This document shows positions 536 to 12,583 of a DNA stretch of 36,499 nt, piece by piece. The stretch lies in assembly GCA_013695685.1 (NCBI GenBank), contig JACCZY010000009.1, forward strand, positions 1-36,499. The letters run 5' to 3'. Made by a program: the position numbers and the translations under genes. This DNA comes from Geodermatophilaceae bacterium (GTDB lineage Bacteria; Actinomycetota; Actinomycetes; Mycobacteriales; Geodermatophilaceae). Each line of letters begins with the position of its first letter. The stretch's first letter is position 1. Below the pieces are notes generated by a model. That model saw only the letters and a program-made list of their open reading frames with translations. It had not been told where the DNA came from and made no database searches.

Positions 536-1354
536 GTGGGGACGACGCGGTACGGCTCGGATGTCATGCGGGGGTTTCGGCCCGGCCGGCGCCGCACGAC
601 GGTTCCGGTGGTGGCCGCTGAGGCCGGGCTCGTCGTGGAAGACGCGAAGAGCGGCTTCTGCGGCGCGATCCTCGGCTGCGGCAAGGACTCGTTGACGTTG
701 CGGGACCGGCACGGCCGTGACCGGGTATTCCCGCTGTTCGCCGGCGGCTTTCTGCTGGCCGGGTCGCCGGTCACGTTGGTCCGTCCGGCGGCGCCGGCGG
801 CGGCACCCCGGCGTACCGCCTCGGGGTCGATCGCGGTACAGGGCCAACCGGCACTGGTCGCGAAAGCCAGCCGGATCTACGTCGAAGGCGTGCACGACGC
901 CGCGCTGGTCGAGCGGGTATGGGGCGATGACCTGCGGGTCGAGGGCGTCGTGGTGGAGCCGCTGCACGGGATCGACGACCTGCCGGCGGTGGTCCGCCAC
1001 TTCCAGCCGTCCCGCCAACGCCGACTGGGCGTACTGGTCGATCATCTCGTCCCCGGCTCCAAGGAGAGCCGGATCGTCGCCGCCGTCACGGACCCGCACG
1101 TTCTCGTCACCGGCCATCCGTACGTCGACATCTGGCAGGCCGTCCGCCCTGCGGCGCTCGGGATAGCGGCCTGGCCCGCCGTGGCACCAGGAATCCCGTG
1201 GAAAGCAGGTGTCTGCGCTGCCCTGGAAGCCGGTGACCCCGCGGACTTCTGGCGCCGGGTGCTCGGCGCGGTGTCGTCGTACGCCGACCTGGAGACGCCG
1301 CTGCTCGGAGCGGTCGAACGGCTGATCGACTGGGTGACCGGACCGGCTTCCTAG
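536..1354 (+). CDS. DUF3097 family protein
   Basis: The product is about 272 residues and matches the actinobacterial DUF3097 family in layout. Its start carries RYGSDV, followed by VPAEAGLVVED-like text (here VVAAEAGLVVEDAKSGFCGA) and later IYVEGVHDAALVERVWGDDLR. The central VEGVHDAALVE stretch with the later LVDHLVPGSKE resembles a Toprim-like fold, which is an inference. The biochemical role is not established. GTG 536 was chosen because it sits just before the conserved RYG segment and 7 bases after a TAGCCT box; in-frame starts at 479 (ATG) and 509 (GTG) would overlap or crowd the divergent gene. The gene is convergent with the kinase, and the two stop codons share one CTAG at 1351-1354. 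Confidence 0.85.
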   Translation: MGTTRYGSDVMRGFRPGRRRTTVPVVAAEAGLVVEDAKSGFCGAILGCGKDSLTLRDRHGRDRVFPLFAGGFLLAGSPVTLVRPAAPAAAPRRTASGSIAVQGQPALVAKASRIYVEGVHDAALVERVWGDDLRVEGVVVEPLHGIDDLPAVVRHFQPSRQRRLGVLVDHLVPGSKESRIVAAVTDPHVLVTGHPYVDIWQAVRPAALGIAAWPAVAPGIPWKAGVCAALEAGDPADFWRRVLGAVSSYADLETPLLGAVERLIDWVTGPAS

Positions 1355-2247
1355 GTCCGGGCGAAAGGGGCATCATCGGCAAAGGGCACCGGCGTGCTGT
1401 CGAGTGCGGCCGCGAGGGTGGCCGCCATTGCCGGGATCGTCGGTCGTGTCTCCGGGTCCAGCGCGAGGGCGGCGTCGATGAGCCTGGCGACGTCGGCCGG
1501 CACCCGACGCCGGCGCGGTAGCGGAGCCGGCGCCATGACGCTGACCTGCCGCCCGGTCGAGGTGGTCGGGCGCGCTCGCGAACCGCTGGACGGCGCCTCG
1601 GACGAGGCGGAAGTCCGCTCGGGTTGGGGGACCGCCGGCTCACCGACAAGGGCTTCGTAGAGCAAACCCCCGATGCCCCATACGTCGGCCGCCGGGCCGA
1701 GCCTGTCGCCGAGGGCTTGCTCCGGCGACAGGTAACCGGCAGTTCCGATACCGGGCTTGCGGCGCCCCGGTCGCCGGGCGAGGGACAGGTCGATCAGTTT
1801 GGCCCGGCCGCCGTCGGCCACGACGTTGGAGGGCTTCAGGTCCAGGTGCAGCCACCCCTGCCGGTGCAGGTAGCCGATCGCAGCGGTGAGGTGCAGCCCG
1901 AGGTGGAGCACGTCGCGTACCGGCAGGCGCTCGTGCTCGTCGAGCAAGGCCGACAGGGTGTGGCCGGACAAAGTTTCCAGGACAACCACAGGAGTAGGCG
2001 AACGGATCACGTCATACAGCCGAACGATGTGCGGATGGGTGAGCCGGCCGAGTAGGCGGCCTTCGGCCAAGAGGTCGCTGATGGATTTCCCGTCCGGGGG
2101 GCGGTCGGGCCGCAGCGTCTTGGCGACGCAGCGGCAGCCGCGCTCCTCGCTCCAGACGTCGTAGACGTTGACGTGCCTGCCTTCGTGCAGTTGCTGCAGA
2201 ACACGCAGGCCCGGAAGATCCGGCGCGGTCGGCTCCGGCCCGCTCAT
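1351..2247 (-). CDS. Serine/threonine protein kinase, short form without membrane segment
   Basis: The product is 298 residues and consists of little more than a Hanks-type kinase domain. Visible motifs are VAK with K43, the helix-C glutamate E62, HLDLKPSN with D136, K138 and N141, the metal-binding D153 in IDLS where most kinases have DFG, and GTAGYLSPEQ near 168-177. The glycine loop is degenerate, with EGRHVNVY and only one glycine. The main catalytic residues are kept, so it may be active. There is no transmembrane helix or sensor domain; a Ser/Pro-rich segment near 210-240 separates the last two parts. The ATG at 2247 overlaps the stop of the upstream ABC exporter gene as ATGA, so the two are translationally coupled. 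This suggests the kinase acts with the exporter, which is inference. Confidence 0.85.
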   Translation of the reverse strand: MSGPEPTAPDLPGLRVLQQLHEGRHVNVYDVWSEERGCRCVAKTLRPDRPPDGKSISDLLAEGRLLGRLTHPHIVRLYDVIRSPTPVVVLETLSGHTLSALLDEHERLPVRDVLHLGLHLTAAIGYLHRQGWLHLDLKPSNVVADGGRAKLIDLSLARRPGRRKPGIGTAGYLSPEQALGDRLGPAADVWGIGGLLYEALVGEPAVPQPERTSASSEAPSSGSRARPTTSTGRQVSVMAPAPLPRRRRVPADVARLIDAALALDPETRPTIPAMAATLAAALDSTPVPFADDAPFART

Positions 2248-4112
2248 GTGCGCCTCGACGCGTCGTCGAGGGCAGCTTCCTCCGGTTCCACGGCGGGGTC
2301 GAACGCTGGGGCGGGTCGGATCGGTTCGAGGGTGATTGTCCGGTTGGCCAGGGCCGCGACCTTCGGATCGTGGGTGATCAGCAGGACCGTCCGGTCGGTC
2401 GTCAGTCGCGGCAGCAGTTGGAGCGCGGTGGCCGGGTCGAGCCCGACCGTAGGCTCGTCGAGCACCAGGACTGCGGGGTCGCGCAGCAGGGTGCGGGCCA
2501 GCGCCAGCCGTTGCCGCTGGCCTCCGGACAACGACCTGCCCTTCTGGCCGACCCTGGTGTCCAGCCCCTCCGGCAGGGCCTGCACGAAGGCGAGCGCCTC
2601 GACCTGCTGCAGCGCCTCGATGACCTGCTCGTCGGTGGCCCACGGCTGGCCCATCCGGACGTTGTTCCGCACGCTCGCGTCCATCACCAGGGCTTCCTGC
2701 AACACGATGCCGACGTTGCTGCGGATCGTTTCCAGCCTCAGGTCCCGCAGGTCATGGCCGTCCAGCCGAACGCAGCCGGAGTCAGGGTCCACCAGGCGAG
2801 CGGCCAGCCGGGCCACTGTCGACTTTCCTGACCCGCTGGGTCCGACCAGAGCTACCACCTCACCCGGCTGGACGATCACGCTGAGCCCCTTCACCGCCGG
2901 CCTGGCCGATTCGGGGTAGCTGTAGCTGACAGTCTCGATGGCCAGCCGGCCGACCACGCGGTTCAGCCGGCGAGCACTCCGGCGCTCGGTGACCCCGGCC
3001 GGCGTGTCGAGCATCTCGAGCACCCGCTCCGCGCCGGCGGAGGCGGCGAAGACCGAGGCGACGACACTGCCGAGCTGCTGGATCGGGCTGTAGAGCAGGC
3101 CGAGGTAGGCCAGGAATGCAAGCAACTGGCCGAGGGTGAGGCGGCCGTCTACCAGCGCCCAGGCACCGAAGCCGATAGCCGTGAGAACGCCCATCAGCTC
3201 GAAGAAGTCGACGACCACCGGGTAGGCACCGCGCAGCCGCGCGGCGGCCAGCTCGGCCTCGTAGACGTCCTCGGCCTGCCGGTCGAACCGCTGGCTCTCC
3301 TCTTCCTGCATGCCGTGGCTCTGCACCAGCGCTGCCGCTCCGAGGGATTCCTCGGCTACGGAGGACAGCGAGCCGGTACGGCGCCGCTTCTCCCGGGAAG
3401 CCTGCTTGAGCCGGTTGGCGAACGCGCGGGCGAGGCTCCAGAACAGTGGCGCCAGCAGCAGTGCAGCAAGGGCAAGCTGCCAGTCGATGAGGAGTAGGGC
3501 GCCGGTGAAGAAGAGCACGCGGAACGTGGCCGAGACGGCGCTGGTCAGTGAGCTGACGAAGAGGGACTCGATCGCTGCTACGTCACCGCTGAGGCGGGAA
3601 ACCAGGTCGCCGAGCCTTCGGCGATCCAATGCGGGCAGGGACAGCTGGTGCAGATGGGCGAAGAGCCGGCTACGGAGCCGGAGCAGAAAGGCGCCGCCGA
3701 CGCGGGCGGCGAGGTAGTCATCGGTGTAGGAGAGGGCACCGGACAGCAGGTTCAAAGCGACGAACCCGATGCAGATACCGACCAGCGGACCCATGACCTG
3801 CGGAACCAGGACGGTGTCGACCAAGACCTGGAACAACCAGATCTCGACAGCTTGCAGTGCCGGGAGCGCTGCTACGGCGACAAGGCCGGTCAGCAGCAGC
3901 CAGCGGTCCGGTCGAAGGTCTGGCCAGAACCTTCTGAGCACCACGCGGATCGGCACTGCCGGGGCTGCTGCAACGATCGCCGAGCCCTCCCCGACCGGAG
4001 CGAGCAACCGGCGCAGGGACGTCAGGGGCCGGACAGTGAACGGCCCCCGACGTGGCCCGCGGTCGTTCGTGCCGGCCGCGGATACGCGTCGAGGGCCGTT
4101 CGCCGGTGTCAC
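2244..4112 (-). CDS. ABC exporter, fused membrane and ATP-binding domains
   Basis: The product is 622 residues and carries an exporter-type membrane domain with about six helices (roughly 70-340) followed by an ATPase domain. Motifs are Walker A GPSGSGKST near residue 423, signature LSGGQRQRL near 525, and Walker B VLVLDEPT. Such half-size exporters work as dimers to move lipids, peptides or drugs outward; the substrate cannot be told from sequence. There is no N-terminal C39 peptidase domain. The start is uncertain: GTG 4112 is used, only 8 bases after the stop of a 40-codon Arg-rich ORF that has a strong ribosome-binding site, while this GTG has none. Translation may therefore depend on the upstream ORF. 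The gene overlaps the kinase start by 4 bases. Confidence 0.88.
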   Translation of the reverse strand: MTPANGPRRVSAAGTNDRGPRRGPFTVRPLTSLRRLLAPVGEGSAIVAAAPAVPIRVVLRRFWPDLRPDRWLLLTGLVAVAALPALQAVEIWLFQVLVDTVLVPQVMGPLVGICIGFVALNLLSGALSYTDDYLAARVGGAFLLRLRSRLFAHLHQLSLPALDRRRLGDLVSRLSGDVAAIESLFVSSLTSAVSATFRVLFFTGALLLIDWQLALAALLLAPLFWSLARAFANRLKQASREKRRRTGSLSSVAEESLGAAALVQSHGMQEEESQRFDRQAEDVYEAELAAARLRGAYPVVVDFFELMGVLTAIGFGAWALVDGRLTLGQLLAFLAYLGLLYSPIQQLGSVVASVFAASAGAERVLEMLDTPAGVTERRSARRLNRVVGRLAIETVSYSYPESARPAVKGLSVIVQPGEVVALVGPSGSGKSTVARLAARLVDPDSGCVRLDGHDLRDLRLETIRSNVGIVLQEALVMDASVRNNVRMGQPWATDEQVIEALQQVEALAFVQALPEGLDTRVGQKGRSLSGGQRQRLALARTLLRDPAVLVLDEPTVGLDPATALQLLPRLTTDRTVLLITHDPKVAALANRTITLEPIRPAPAFDPAVEPEEAALDDASRRT

Positions 4113-4120
4113 CGCGCAGG

Positions 4121-4243
4121 TCAGTCGCGCGAGGTGCGCGAGCGGCGGCGCCGACGGCGGCGGGGGCGGCTAGTGCGGCTGGTGCGCCGTCCGTCGGTGT
4201 TGGCCGCGGGGGTGACGGCTGCGAAGATTCCTGAGCGGGCCAT
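4121..4243 (-). CDS. Small Arg-rich ORF (40 residues) heading the ABC exporter/kinase operon
   Basis: ATG at 4243 is preceded by a textbook ribosome-binding site AAGGAGG (4249-4255) at 5 bases, the strongest in this part of the window. The 40-residue product starts MARSGIFAAVTPAANTDG and ends in a tail with seven consecutive arginines within a Ser/Thr/Arg-rich stretch, then a TGA at 4121. It stops 8 bases before the GTG of the ABC exporter gene. I do not recognise a family. It could be a secreted or modified peptide, a nucleic-acid-binding tail protein, or a regulatory leader in which poly-Arg synthesis slows ribosomes and controls the exporter. Sequence supports that it is translated; function is inference. 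Confidence 0.55.
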   Translation of the reverse strand: MARSGIFAAVTPAANTDGRRTSRTSRPRRRRRRRSRTSRD

Positions 4244-4426
4244 GTCGTCCTCCTTGCTCTGTGCTACCGGACCCGGTGTCCGGCGCTGGCATCACGATTG
4301 CCCGCGCAGATGGCATGACCATGAAGTGAGCGTTAAAGGGCTTTCATCTGCTGGACAGGGGTACCCGATCCGCTCGACGTCGGTTGATCCAGCCGTCTGC
4401 CGGGCGGCAAGTGGTTGGATTGGGGC

Positions 4427-4864
4427 ATGCCCGCCTGGTTGATCTGGCTCATCGGCTCGGGACTGCTGGCCGTCGCCGAGATCTTCACGCTGGATCTGGT
4501 GCTCCTCATGTTCGCCGGCGCCGCACTGGCGACCGCCGGCGTGGCCCTGCTGGGAGCCCCGGTGCTCGTGCAGCTGATCACGTTCATCGTCGCGTCGGTG
4601 GGGCTGCTCTTCGTCGTACGTCCGATCGCTGCAAGGCACCTCAGGGAACGCAATCCGCGTCAGGTCGACGGTGCGCAGGTGTACATCGGCCGGCTGGGGG
4701 TGGTGACCGAGCGGGTCGACGAGCATCGCGGCCGGATCAAGATTGACGGCGACGAATGGTCGGCGGTGACCGAGACCGCGATCGAGCAGTTCGACATCGG
4801 CGCCAAGGTTCGGGTGATGGAGATCAGGGGCGCCACCGCCGTAGTTTCCGGCGACTTAGTTTAG
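4427..4864 (+). CDS. NfeD-like membrane protein with C-terminal OB domain
   Basis: The product is about 145 residues. Two or three hydrophobic helices occupy roughly residues 1-75 (starting MPAWLIWLIGSGLLAVAEIF), then a soluble OB-fold-like segment of about 65 residues ends it (GRLGVVTERVD, then RIKIDGDEWSAV and GAKVRVMEIRGATAVV). This is the short NfeD form that lacks the ClpP-like protease part. Family members sit beside SPFH/stomatin genes and are thought to work with them in membrane microdomains. That pairing is present here, with the SPFH gene about 60 bases downstream. ATG 4427 was preferred over an upstream TTG at 4415. Confidence 0.85.
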   Translation: MPAWLIWLIGSGLLAVAEIFTLDLVLLMFAGAALATAGVALLGAPVLVQLITFIVASVGLLFVVRPIAARHLRERNPRQVDGAQVYIGRLGVVTERVDEHRGRIKIDGDEWSAVTETAIEQFDIGAKVRVMEIRGATAVVSGDLV

Positions 4865-4925: not shown

Positions 4926-6191
4926 ATGGAAGCCCTGATCGCCCTAGCCGTGATCATCGTGTTCATCCTGATCGTGCTCGGGAGAAGCGTGCGGATCGTG
5001 CCGCAGGCGACCGCGTCGGTGGTCGAGCGGCTGGGCCGCTTCAACCGGACGCTGACACCGGGGCTGGCGCTGCTGGTGCCGTTCGTCGACCGGGTGCGCA
5101 CCCGGATCGACCTGCGTGAGCAGGTGGTGTCCTTCCCGCCGCAGCCGGTCATCACCGCCGACAACCTCAACGTCGGCATGGACACCGTCGTCTATTTCCA
5201 GGTCACCGACCCCAAGTCCGCGACGTACGGGATCGCGAACTACATCCAGGCGATGGAGCAGTTGACTGTCACGACGCTGCGCAATGTGGTCGGCGGGCTG
5301 AACCTGGAGGAGACGCTGACCAGCCGCGACATGATCAACTCACAGCTCCGCGCGGTCCTGGACGGCACCACCGGCTCGTGGGGGATCCGGGTGGCCCGAG
5401 TGGAGATCAAGGCCATCGACCCACCGGGAACGATCCTGGAGTCGATGGAGAAGCAGATGAAGGCCGACCGTGACAAGCGGGCGATGATCCTCAACGCCGA
5501 GGGCATGCGGGAGTCGACCATCAAGACCGCGGAGGGGCAGAAGCAGTCTCAGATCCTGCAGGCGCAGGGAAACAAGCAGGCCACGATCCTCAACGCCGAG
5601 GCCGAGCGACAGGGTCAGATCCTGCGGGCCGAGGGAGAGCGGGCAGCGAAGTTCCTGCAGGCGCAGGGCCAGGCCAAGGCGATCGAGACAGTTTTCGCGG
5701 CAATTCACAACGGCGACCCGGATCCGCAGCTGCTCGCCTACCAGTACCTGCAGACGCTGCCGCAGATCGCTCAGGGTGACTCCAACAAGATGTGGATCGT
5801 GCCGAGTGAGTTCAGCCGGGCGCTGGAAGGTCTCGGCCGCGCCGTAGGGGGCGGCAGCGACGGCGGGTCCGACGGTGGTGACAACGGACCGTCCTGGCTG
5901 CGCGCCGAGCGCACCACGCCGCGTGAGCGCGCGGATGCGATCGACACGTCGGGCTGGTTCGACTCCAACCTGGCGCCGGCGGCTCAACAGCCGGAGGCGG
6001 AGACCGAAATGAGCGACACCACTCCTGGCGCCCTGACCGTGCCGAGCCTGTCGGCGGCGCGGGAGGAGGTCCCATCCACCCCGCCCGCGCTGAGGCCGCC
6101 GGATTCCCCGCCGGCCGACGCCGGACAGCAGCGATCACAGCACCGGGACCAGGACTCCGGGGAGTCGGAGCAGCCGCCACCCCGGCAGTAG
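4926..6191 (+). CDS. SPFH/stomatin-like (band 7) membrane protein
   Basis: The product is 421 residues. A single N-terminal membrane helix (residues 3-20, LIALAVIIVFILIVL) is followed by the SPFH domain (VRIVPQATASVVERLGRF, then DLREQVVSFPPQPV, and ITADNLNVGMDTVVYFQV). A long charged helical region of repeated AEG/AQG units follows (about 185-265), likely a coiled coil for oligomer formation. The tail after about residue 300 is Gly, Ser and Pro rich and probably disordered. Stomatin-type proteins form ring assemblies on membranes and influence membrane-protein turnover. ATG 4926 has a purine-rich ribosome site (GAGAAGGGA) upstream. It pairs with the NfeD-like gene and is convergent with the ABC exporter, with only 2 bases between stops. 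Confidence 0.9.
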   Translation: MEALIALAVIIVFILIVLGRSVRIVPQATASVVERLGRFNRTLTPGLALLVPFVDRVRTRIDLREQVVSFPPQPVITADNLNVGMDTVVYFQVTDPKSATYGIANYIQAMEQLTVTTLRNVVGGLNLEETLTSRDMINSQLRAVLDGTTGSWGIRVARVEIKAIDPPGTILESMEKQMKADRDKRAMILNAEGMRESTIKTAEGQKQSQILQAQGNKQATILNAEAERQGQILRAEGERAAKFLQAQGQAKAIETVFAAIHNGDPDPQLLAYQYLQTLPQIAQGDSNKMWIVPSEFSRALEGLGRAVGGGSDGGSDGGDNGPSWLRAERTTPRERADAIDTSGWFDSNLAPAAQQPEAETEMSDTTPGALTVPSLSAAREEVPSTPPALRPPDSPPADAGQQRSQHRDQDSGESEQPPPRQ

Positions 6192-6193
6192 GA

Positions 6194-8077
6194 CTACACC
6201 GGCGCGGGCTGCGCGCTAGGGTCGGCGAACTGGGTGCGGTACAGCTCGGAGTACCGCCCGCGCCGGGCGAGCAGCTCGCCGTGCGTGCCACGTTCGACGA
6301 TGCTGCCCTCGTCGATGACGAGGATCTCGTCGGCGGCCCGGATCGTGGACAGCCGGTGCGCGATGACGAGAGCGGTGCGTCCGCTCAACGCCTCGACCAG
6401 CGCCTCCTGCACCGCCGCCTCCGACTGGGAGTCCAGATGCGCGGTGGCCTCGTCCAGGATCACCACGCGGGGTCTGGCCAGGAGCAACCGGGCAATGGTC
6501 AGGCGCTGCCGCTCACCTCCGGACAGCCGGTAGCCCCGCTCTCCGATCACGGTGTCCAGCTGGTCTGGCAGCGACCGGACGAGGCGCTCCAGCCGGGCTC
6601 GCCGTAACGCGTCCCACATCTCGTCCCCGGTGGCCTCCGGCCGGGCGAAGCGCAGGTTGCCGCTGATCGTGTCGTGCCACAGGTGCCCGTCCTGCGTGAC
6701 CACTCCCAGCGTGTCGCGGATGGAATCGAAGGACAGCTCCCGCAGGTCGACACCGGAGAACCGAATCGCTCCGCTGTCGACGTCGTACAGGCGGGCGGCC
6801 AGCGCCGCGAGCGTGGACTTCCCGGCGCCGGAGGATCCGACGAGGGCGACCAGGCGCCCCGGCTCGGCGGTGAACGACAATCCGTGCAGCACCTCCTCGC
6901 CGCCGCGGGTGTCCAGCGTCGCAACCTCCTCGAGCGAGGCGAGCGACACCGCCGTCGCCGGGGGATAGCTGAACCGGACGCCCTCGAACTCCACCGACAC
7001 CGGTCCGTCGGGTACCTGGCGAGGCTGGTCCGGCTCGGCGATCAGAGGTACCAGGTCGAGCACCTCGAAAACCCGCTCGAAGCTGACCAGCGCGGTCATC
7101 ACCTCCAACCGGGCGCTGGCGAGTGCGGTCAGCGGGGCGTAGAGCCGGGCCAGCAACAGCGCCAGCGCGACGACGTCACCGGCGTCGAGGTTTCCGCGCA
7201 GGGCGAGGTAGCCGCCGAGACCGTAGACCAACGCGAGGGCCAATGCCGAGACCAGCAGAAGCGCGGTCACGAAGACCCACTGGTACATCGCCGTTCGGAC
7301 GCCGATGTCGCGGACCCGGCTGGCCCGGGCGGTGAACTCGAACGCCTCGTCCGCGGGGCGGCCGAACAGCTTGACCAAGGTCGCGCCGGGCGCGGAGAAC
7401 CGCTCGGTCATCTGCGTGGTCATGGCCGAGTTGTGGTTGGCCGCCTCCCGCTCCATCGCGGCCAGCTGCCTGCCCATCCGGCGCGCAGGCAGCACGAAGA
7501 CCGGCAGCAGGACCAGTGCCAGCAGGGTGACCTGCCAGGACAGCTGCAGCATCACGGCCAGGGTGAGCACCAGCGCCACGACGTTCGTCACGACGCCGGA
7601 GAGCGTGTCGCTGAAGGCCCGCTGCGCCCCGATCACGTCGTTGTTCAAGCGGCTGACCAGCGCCCCCGTCCGGGTGCGGGTGAAGAAGGCGACCGGCATC
7701 CGCTGAACGTGGGTGAACACCGCGCGGCGGAGGTCGAGAATCAGGCCCTCCCCGATGCGCGCCGACAGCCAGCGGCTGAACAGGCCGACCGCCGCCTCGA
7801 GCACGGCGATCAGCGCGATGATGACGGACAGGGTCACGACGGTGGAGACCTCGCCGTTGCCGACGATCGCGTTGACCACCCGGCCCGCCAGGACCGGGGT
7901 GGCCACGATGAGCACGGCCGAGACGACGCTGAGTAGTAGGAAGACAACGAGATCGCGCCGGTGCGGCCGGGCGAAGCCGAGGATCCGTTGCAGCGTCGTG
8001 ACCGAGAACTTCCGGCGTTCCTCGTTCTGGTTCATGGCGTGGTACAGCGAGTTCCACGCGGCGAATTCCATGCTCAT
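6194..8077 (-). CDS. ABC exporter, fused membrane and ATP-binding domains
   Basis: The product is 627 residues, starting MSMEFAAWNSLYHAMNQNEE. A six-helix exporter membrane domain (about 35-330) contains RMPVAFFTRTRTGALVSRLNND, the usual coupling-helix region. The ATPase part has Walker A GSSGAGKST near residue 412, signature LSGGERQRL near 516, and Walker B VVILDEATAHLD. Outward transport of an unknown substrate is expected, as a homodimer or with a partner; no partner gene is adjacent. ATG 8077 was chosen because residues read further upstream look non-coding (Arg/Ser-rich shadow text). Some of that upstream reading would also overlap the DUF998 gene. It is not related by operon to the SPFH gene, which faces it. 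Confidence 0.88.
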   Translation of the reverse strand: MSMEFAAWNSLYHAMNQNEERRKFSVTTLQRILGFARPHRRDLVVFLLLSVVSAVLIVATPVLAGRVVNAIVGNGEVSTVVTLSVIIALIAVLEAAVGLFSRWLSARIGEGLILDLRRAVFTHVQRMPVAFFTRTRTGALVSRLNNDVIGAQRAFSDTLSGVVTNVVALVLTLAVMLQLSWQVTLLALVLLPVFVLPARRMGRQLAAMEREAANHNSAMTTQMTERFSAPGATLVKLFGRPADEAFEFTARASRVRDIGVRTAMYQWVFVTALLLVSALALALVYGLGGYLALRGNLDAGDVVALALLLARLYAPLTALASARLEVMTALVSFERVFEVLDLVPLIAEPDQPRQVPDGPVSVEFEGVRFSYPPATAVSLASLEEVATLDTRGGEEVLHGLSFTAEPGRLVALVGSSGAGKSTLAALAARLYDVDSGAIRFSGVDLRELSFDSIRDTLGVVTQDGHLWHDTISGNLRFARPEATGDEMWDALRRARLERLVRSLPDQLDTVIGERGYRLSGGERQRLTIARLLLARPRVVILDEATAHLDSQSEAAVQEALVEALSGRTALVIAHRLSTIRAADEILVIDEGSIVERGTHGELLARRGRYSELYRTQFADPSAQPAPV

Positions 8078-12382: not shown

Positions 12383-12498
12383 GCCGCCCCACGGCAGGGG
12401 GATGCCTGCGCGGATGCCCGCTGTGAGGCTCGGGCCGTTGTCGATGAGGCGCTTCCTACACCGGACCCACCAACCGAGCCGGTTCGGGTTCTGGCCGG

Positions 12499-12583
12499 TG
12501 TCCGAGGGGGGACTTGAACCCCCACGCCCCATTAAGGGCACTAGCACCTCAAGCTAGCGCGTCTGCCATTCCGCCACCCGGAC
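12499..12583 (-). tRNA. tRNA-Leu(GAG)
   Basis: On the minus strand the sequence folds into an 85-base class II tRNA. The acceptor strand GTCCGGG (12583-12577) pairs with CTCGGAC (12506-12500), including one G-U pair, and the discriminator base at 12499 is A. The D arm is typical of tRNA-Leu (GCGGAATGGCAGACGC). The anticodon stem is CTAGC/GCTAG and encloses the loop TTGAGGT, giving anticodon GAG, which reads CUC and CUU. A long variable arm follows, then a T arm with GTTCAAGTCC. The 3' CCA is not encoded. The anticodon and long variable arm agree on leucine identity. Confidence 0.93.

Follow-up and report, generated by a model that had tools for sequence, protein, structure and literature searches.

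The window, that is, the whole stretch of 36,499 nucleotides analysed here, belongs to a 2.98-Mb assembly and carries on its reverse strand an operon formed by a small ORF, an ABC exporter gene and a kinase gene. The features of this operon, in the direction of transcription, are the following.

4308..4348, minus strand: upstream element with half sites TTTAAC, CTTCAT and TGCCAT at 11-bp spacing
4249..4255, minus strand: Shine-Dalgarno sequence AAGGAGG of the small ORF, a few bases 5' of its ATG, read from the sequence
4121..4243, minus strand: small ORF, ATG start, TGA stop, 40 aa, with the conserved head MARSGIFAAVTPA and an Arg/Ser/Thr-rich tail
4038..4101, minus strand: hairpin with a 15-bp stem (GAACGGCCCTCGACG / CGTCGGGGGCCGTTC), directly 3' of the small ORF and without a T-run
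2244..4112, minus strand: ABC exporter, 622 aa, GTG start at 4112, with membrane and ATPase domains
1351..2247, minus strand: soluble Hanks-type Ser/Thr kinase, 298 aa, ATG at 2247

The product of the small ORF is the proposed exported peptide. The gene arrangement given in the earlier note was borne out: the small ORF has its own ribosome site, its TGA lies 8 nt before the exporter GTG, this GTG has no ribosome site of its own in the window, and the exporter TGA and the kinase ATG share an ATGA overlap. The exporter would here be translated by coupling from the stop codon of the small ORF. The hairpin at 4101-4038 is a feature that was absent from that note. Divergently from the operon lie NfeD-like (4415-4864, plus strand) and SPFH/stomatin-like (4926-6191, plus strand) genes, both named by eye. 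Upstream, beyond these two genes, a second ABC exporter was located at 6329-7972 (minus strand), with 31% identity to that of the operon, and a comparable second exporter occurs in family relatives, a few kb 5' of the operon. A tRNA-Leu (GAG) gene occupies positions 12497-12583 (minus strand).

The small ORF of the window is a real gene. It was found before the same exporter in six further genomes of the same family, the head MARSGIFAAV being identical in all seven members and the tails similar. Pairwise differences among the family members in codons 2-12 amounted to 12, 0 and 56 at codon positions 1, 2 and 3, respectively. The head pattern was matched in 8 of 115 genomes of the family, one of these matches (G039) proving on inspection to be an unrelated gene, and a genome of the same genus as the window (G018) showed no such ORF and no member of the exporter and kinase clades defined below.

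Judged from profile searches and alignments, the exporter and the kinase are a distinct orthologue pair that forms a discrete clade pair in several actinobacterial families. The kinase profile search gave two separated groups, with the clade at E values below about 1e-90 and the other kinases at about 1e-60. Clade exporters, which outside the family are 45-54% identical, scored at least 462 bits vs at most 303 bits for the paralogues. Genus g38 had clade kinases in 16 of 150 genomes, and others came from family f29 and from f58, a family that belongs to a different class of the phylum. In 37 of 40 additional loci the exporter was immediately 5' of the kinase. The earlier note had asked whether relatives with the exporter and the kinase also have the small ORF, and whether its protein or only its arginine run is conserved. 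On manual reading, an ORF of 32-64 aa with a ribosome site adjoined the exporter or the kinase in 52 of 53 loci; it showed coding conservation, and it is the head that is conserved, the Arg run being replaced in relatives. When a fixed criterion was applied (30-70 aa, a ribosome site and at least 28% R/K/H), 49 of the 53 loci gave an ORF, compared with 72 of 1516 control windows (4.7%). With the head motif added, the figures were 46/53 and 4/1516, bearing in mind that this motif comes from the very loci that it scores and that loci within one family are not independent.

One locus, L194, has exporter and kinase with no ORF on reading by eye, and the first 137 residues of its exporter are also unaligned. 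No ORF was detected beside the clade kinases of L202 and L116, and the sequence of L227 stops at the kinase. The surroundings of seven loci were mapped for ORFs and read by eye, and they had no neighbour gene in common; no plasmid-borne copies were found in PLSDB at 1e-90. The trio without other maturation genes, which the earlier note had regarded as unusual, is genuine and recurs across relatives. Comparison of 40 peptides with Pfam and NCBIfam gave no match, and the literature searched, which covers the field partially, contained no description of the trio. Taken together, the trio suggests a hitherto undescribed system that makes, probably phosphorylates and exports small repetitive peptides.

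Among the peptides, the head is a segment of about 13 residues with the general pattern MA..F..L.PA, whereas the tail is variable, very hydrophilic and repetitive. The tails were of poly-Arg/SRSRTN, RGRG/RTRT, lysine/threonine and His-Gly-Asp repeat types, and examples of counterparts are MAIFSSLMPAKRHDHGGDSSGHGSSGHGDRHDHGDHGDHGG... in g38 and MAFSAYSLSTRRRRGRGRGRHGTGTGTHTRTGG... in f29. Within genus g38, the first 10 residues were on average 70% identical, in contrast to 30% for the tails. Most tails of this genus (His/Gly/Asp) are neutral to acidic. The system therefore cannot be explained by one chemical property common to all tails, and g38 likewise gives no support to a general role as cationic antimicrobials. 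Tail type tracks the exporter tree, with 5 changes vs 14.1 in shuffles, although this tree also follows taxonomy, which alone could cause part of the agreement. All listed tails contain Ser/Thr, with only 1 to 5 of these residues in some, and the peptide is expected to be disordered. Cysteine is absent from the window peptide and from nearly all counterparts, being found only in L204, L211, L212 and L219. The tails of L204, L211 and L212 have two cysteines (e.g., RRPCRRMPNPRRCRRRRRSRSRTN), which could form a loop. Genome G888 contains two separate trios (L213 and L214), one with a poly-Arg/SRSR tail and the other with an RGRG/RTRT tail.

Both the exporter and the kinase are proteins of known fold. 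The main Pfam domains of the exporter were ABC_membrane and ABC_tran only, and the Pfam scan did not identify a C39 peptidase domain. Fused membrane and ATPase domains together with the Walker A, signature and H-loop motifs (GPSGSGKS, LSGGQ and ITHD) place it with the MsbA/Sav1866/P-glycoprotein-type exporters, to which its nearest solved structures also belong. This structural kinship points to no particular substrate; the type is a broad multidrug/lipid one that is not diagnostic of peptides. The L070 exporter ORF (genome G005, ~5987-7050) changes frame after residue 347 and resumes only at the end of the ATPase domain, which is either a real deletion or an assembly fault. The kinase consists of a lone Pkinase domain (122.8 bits) with the Hanks-type motifs, DFG being replaced by DLS and HRD by HLD in the window protein. 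Residues K43, E62, D136, N141 and D153 were invariant across 12 aligned orthologues, the catalytic Lys, the HxD Asp, the Asn and the D(LS) Asp among them.

The hairpin lies within the first codons of the exporter, and its 15-bp stem is kept directly 3' of the ORF in 7/7 family members. Two stem pairs were changed on both sides in several sequences with the pairing retained. In these seven members the exporter start codon is located 6-9 nt after the ORF stop and the frame is open. The codons of the hairpin loop had no third-position bias, whereas this bias was present in the exporter codons after 26; since the loop codons lack it, the 5' stretch of the exporter looks constrained as an RNA hairpin rather than as protein. 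Other families usually have a different strong hairpin in the gap between the ORF and the exporter, and z values below -2 after the ORF were obtained for 38 of 52 loci, counting those of the seven family members, vs 10 of 100 coding controls. The hairpin probably sets the ratio of peptide to exporter, lowering exporter output relative to that of the peptide.

Conserved elements were also identified upstream of the ORF. Loci of three families showed direct repeats (CTCAC/CTCAT/TTAAC) with 11-bp spacing at about -80 to -120, and a strict three-repeat pattern was present in 2/7, 9/16 and 6/8 loci vs approximately 0.01 expected or less. The window element (4348-4308) is a looser version of these repeats, with the same arrangement in two other families, and it is a probable response-regulator operator. 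The sites of OmpR/PhoB-type response regulators have a repeat spacing similar to that of these loci; PhoP of M. tuberculosis is described in PMC4832192 as reading 7-bp repeats with a 4-bp spacer. In place of the repeats, 13 of the 16 g38 loci have the following element, which is possibly an alternative sigma-factor promoter.

~-60 of the ORF: CATCC-N16/17-GTAT (L108, L109, L217, L218, L220-L223, L225, L226, L228-L230)

The position and number of the ORFs differ in some loci. Tandem ORFs precede the exporter in L197 (2140-2274 and 2351-2482) and L198 (2366-2476 and 2523-2630, both in kinase-forward orientation). In L115, the ORF comes after the exporter and before the kinase; it has a ribosome site of its own and is succeeded by a hairpin followed by T. 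In L191 (genome G517), the ORF (4411-4518) is directly 5' of the kinase and the genome has no clade exporter. These arrangements argue for the peptide as a product and against a stalling leader. The Arg codons of the ORFs were mostly CGC, and CGT represented 20-27% of them vs 3-9% in the exporter genes, an enrichment that would suit efficient translation better than stalling.

On balance, we think it somewhat more likely than not that the peptide, composed of a leader and a tail, is recognised by a dedicated kinase and leaves the cell through a dedicated ABC transporter. According to this proposal, the small ORF would yield an abundant precursor-like peptide, in which the conserved head of about 13 residues would be the recognition segment and the variable, disordered, Ser/Thr-containing tail would be the part acted upon. 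The dedicated soluble kinase would recognise the peptide and phosphorylate Ser/Thr residues of the tail, which would either partly neutralise an arginine-rich tail inside the cell or set the activity of the tail. The dedicated ABC exporter would then carry the peptide out of the cell. The hairpin after the ORF would limit read-through or translation into the exporter, which in the window would be coupled to the ORF stop codon, and the cell would make far more peptide than exporter. The linkage and conservation of the three genes, the coding constraint on the head, the variability of the tail, the intact catalytic motifs and the conserved hairpin and promoter elements come directly from the sequence comparisons; export, phosphorylation, the part played by the hairpin and any function outside the cell are deduced from them. 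Against this proposal stand the differing chemistry of the tails, with most of those in g38 neutral to acidic, the absence of a C39 domain or a linked protease to remove the leader, the clade kinases of L202 and L116 without a detectable ORF, and the exporter and kinase of L194 without one.

It is more tentative to regard the trio as a new actinobacterial class of ribosomal peptide system, with a dedicated Hanks-type kinase as the sole maturation enzyme and a dedicated ABC transporter secreting a phosphorylated, low-complexity Arg- or His-rich peptide, the recognition head being fixed and the tails switching between chemical types. We hold this to be possible, with the odds rather against it.

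The most serious of the alternatives, although an unlikely one, is that the peptide is an intracellular regulatory microprotein: it would attach to the exporter or the kinase through its head, detect a metal or an anionic ligand with its tail, and in this way control the export of some other substrate. The short conserved head and the low complexity of the tail agree with it, as do the broad multidrug/lipid type of the exporter and the ORF kept in L191 beside a kinase without exporter. However, tandem copies speak against it, the CGT-enriched Arg codons and the hairpin suit an excess of peptide, and the same head with differing tails in one genus resembles varied cargo more than a conserved sensor.

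Less probable still is a kinase whose target is the exporter or some unlinked protein, with the peptide leaving the cell unmodified. Membrane proteins are often under the control of Hanks-type kinases, and because of the ATGA overlap in the window exporter and kinase are made together. This explanation is opposed by L191, where the kinase adjoins the ORF and the genome has no clade exporter, and by the Ser/Thr residues present in all listed tails, a point tempered by the few that some of them have.

The second alternative put forward in the earlier note, that the poly-Arg run slows ribosomes and so controls the exporter, taken here to act through altered folding of the hairpin, fits the order of ORF, strong hairpin and exporter seen in most loci. 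We nevertheless consider it very improbable, because the run is replaced by RGRG, Lys/Thr (KGKK) or His-Gly-Asp (HGDHG) repeats, conservation resides in the head and not in the tail, and the Arg codons are mostly CGC with CGT enriched. Furthermore, no antiterminator pairing signal was found: the ORF paired with the hairpin's 5' arm no more than its synonymous shuffles did (mean z -0.25). The tandem ORFs, the ORF 3' of the exporter in L115 and that without exporter in L191 also argue against it. Of the two alternatives of the earlier note, that of the peptide as a substrate of the exporter, and perhaps of the kinase, is the one that the sequence comparisons favour. Finally, a chance ORF of a GC-rich genome, in which random ORFs are Arg-rich and a basic ORF with a ribosome site occurs in 4.7% of control windows, was ruled out by the conserved head, the codon-position bias, the control windows and the recurrence in 49 to 52 of 53 loci.

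It is usually by way of known modification enzymes that peptide systems come to light, and the trio has only a stand-alone kinase; in addition, its tiny peptide gene lies outside curated families and would be easy to miss. If the peptides preferred here as kinase and exporter substrates are indeed phosphorylated and exported, they would represent a widespread class whose tails are of Arg-Ser, Arg-Gly or His-Gly-Asp type. Anionic polymers or membranes are conceivable binding partners of the Arg-rich tails, and metals of the His-Gly-Asp tails; competition and envelope stress would be further possible roles. Moreover, the arrangement is a clean system in which to study how one kinase and one exporter recognise a short head on very different tails.

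Several known systems resemble the trio. Class III/IV lanthipeptide operons (LanKC, LanL; e.g., venezuelin) likewise join a small precursor with an ABC exporter and with a Ser/Thr kinase-like domain for which the peptide is the substrate. The NCBIfam models matched the trio kinase weakly (LanL, 75.5 bits with a cut-off of 650; LanKC, 32.4 bits with a cut-off of 575), and these far lower scores belong to a protein of 298 aa without lyase or cyclase, whereas the lanthipeptide enzyme is a lyase-kinase-cyclase fusion. Lanthipeptide cores contain Cys besides Ser/Thr; since nearly all listed trio tails lack cysteine, lanthionine rings are not expected. Export operons of unmodified or lightly modified bacteriocins share with the trio the short precursor, the conserved head, the dedicated exporter, the hairpin and the tandem precursors. 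However, the exporter with a C39 peptidase domain that defines double-glycine bacteriocins is not the one found in the window, and the trio has no double-glycine motif or recognisable immunity gene, a kinase replaces the maturation enzymes, and the tails are of low complexity and rich in Arg or His. Some lasso peptide clusters include a kinase that phosphorylates the peptide, and the tailoring of an exported ribosomal peptide by a kinase is an idea common to them and the trio. Lasso clusters contain a lasso cyclase and a protease, whereas the trio has no consistently linked gene around the seven mapped loci. Unusual lasso modifications are among the matters reviewed in PMC9266682.

Amino-acid attenuator leaders (his, leu, trp) also present a short ORF with a single-residue run and a hairpin before the next gene. 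These are defined by a conserved run and a mutually exclusive antiterminator, while in the trio the head and not the run is conserved, the residue of the run varies by clade and no antiterminator signal was found. As an analogy only, eukaryotic SR proteins with their kinases, and protamines, have similar Arg-Ser tails whose charge kinases could neutralise. The gene layout and the division into head and tail of the trio loci would suit a RiPP in the broad sense, a group defined by a ribosomal precursor with leader and core beside a tailoring enzyme and an exporter, and by post-translational modification of the peptide.
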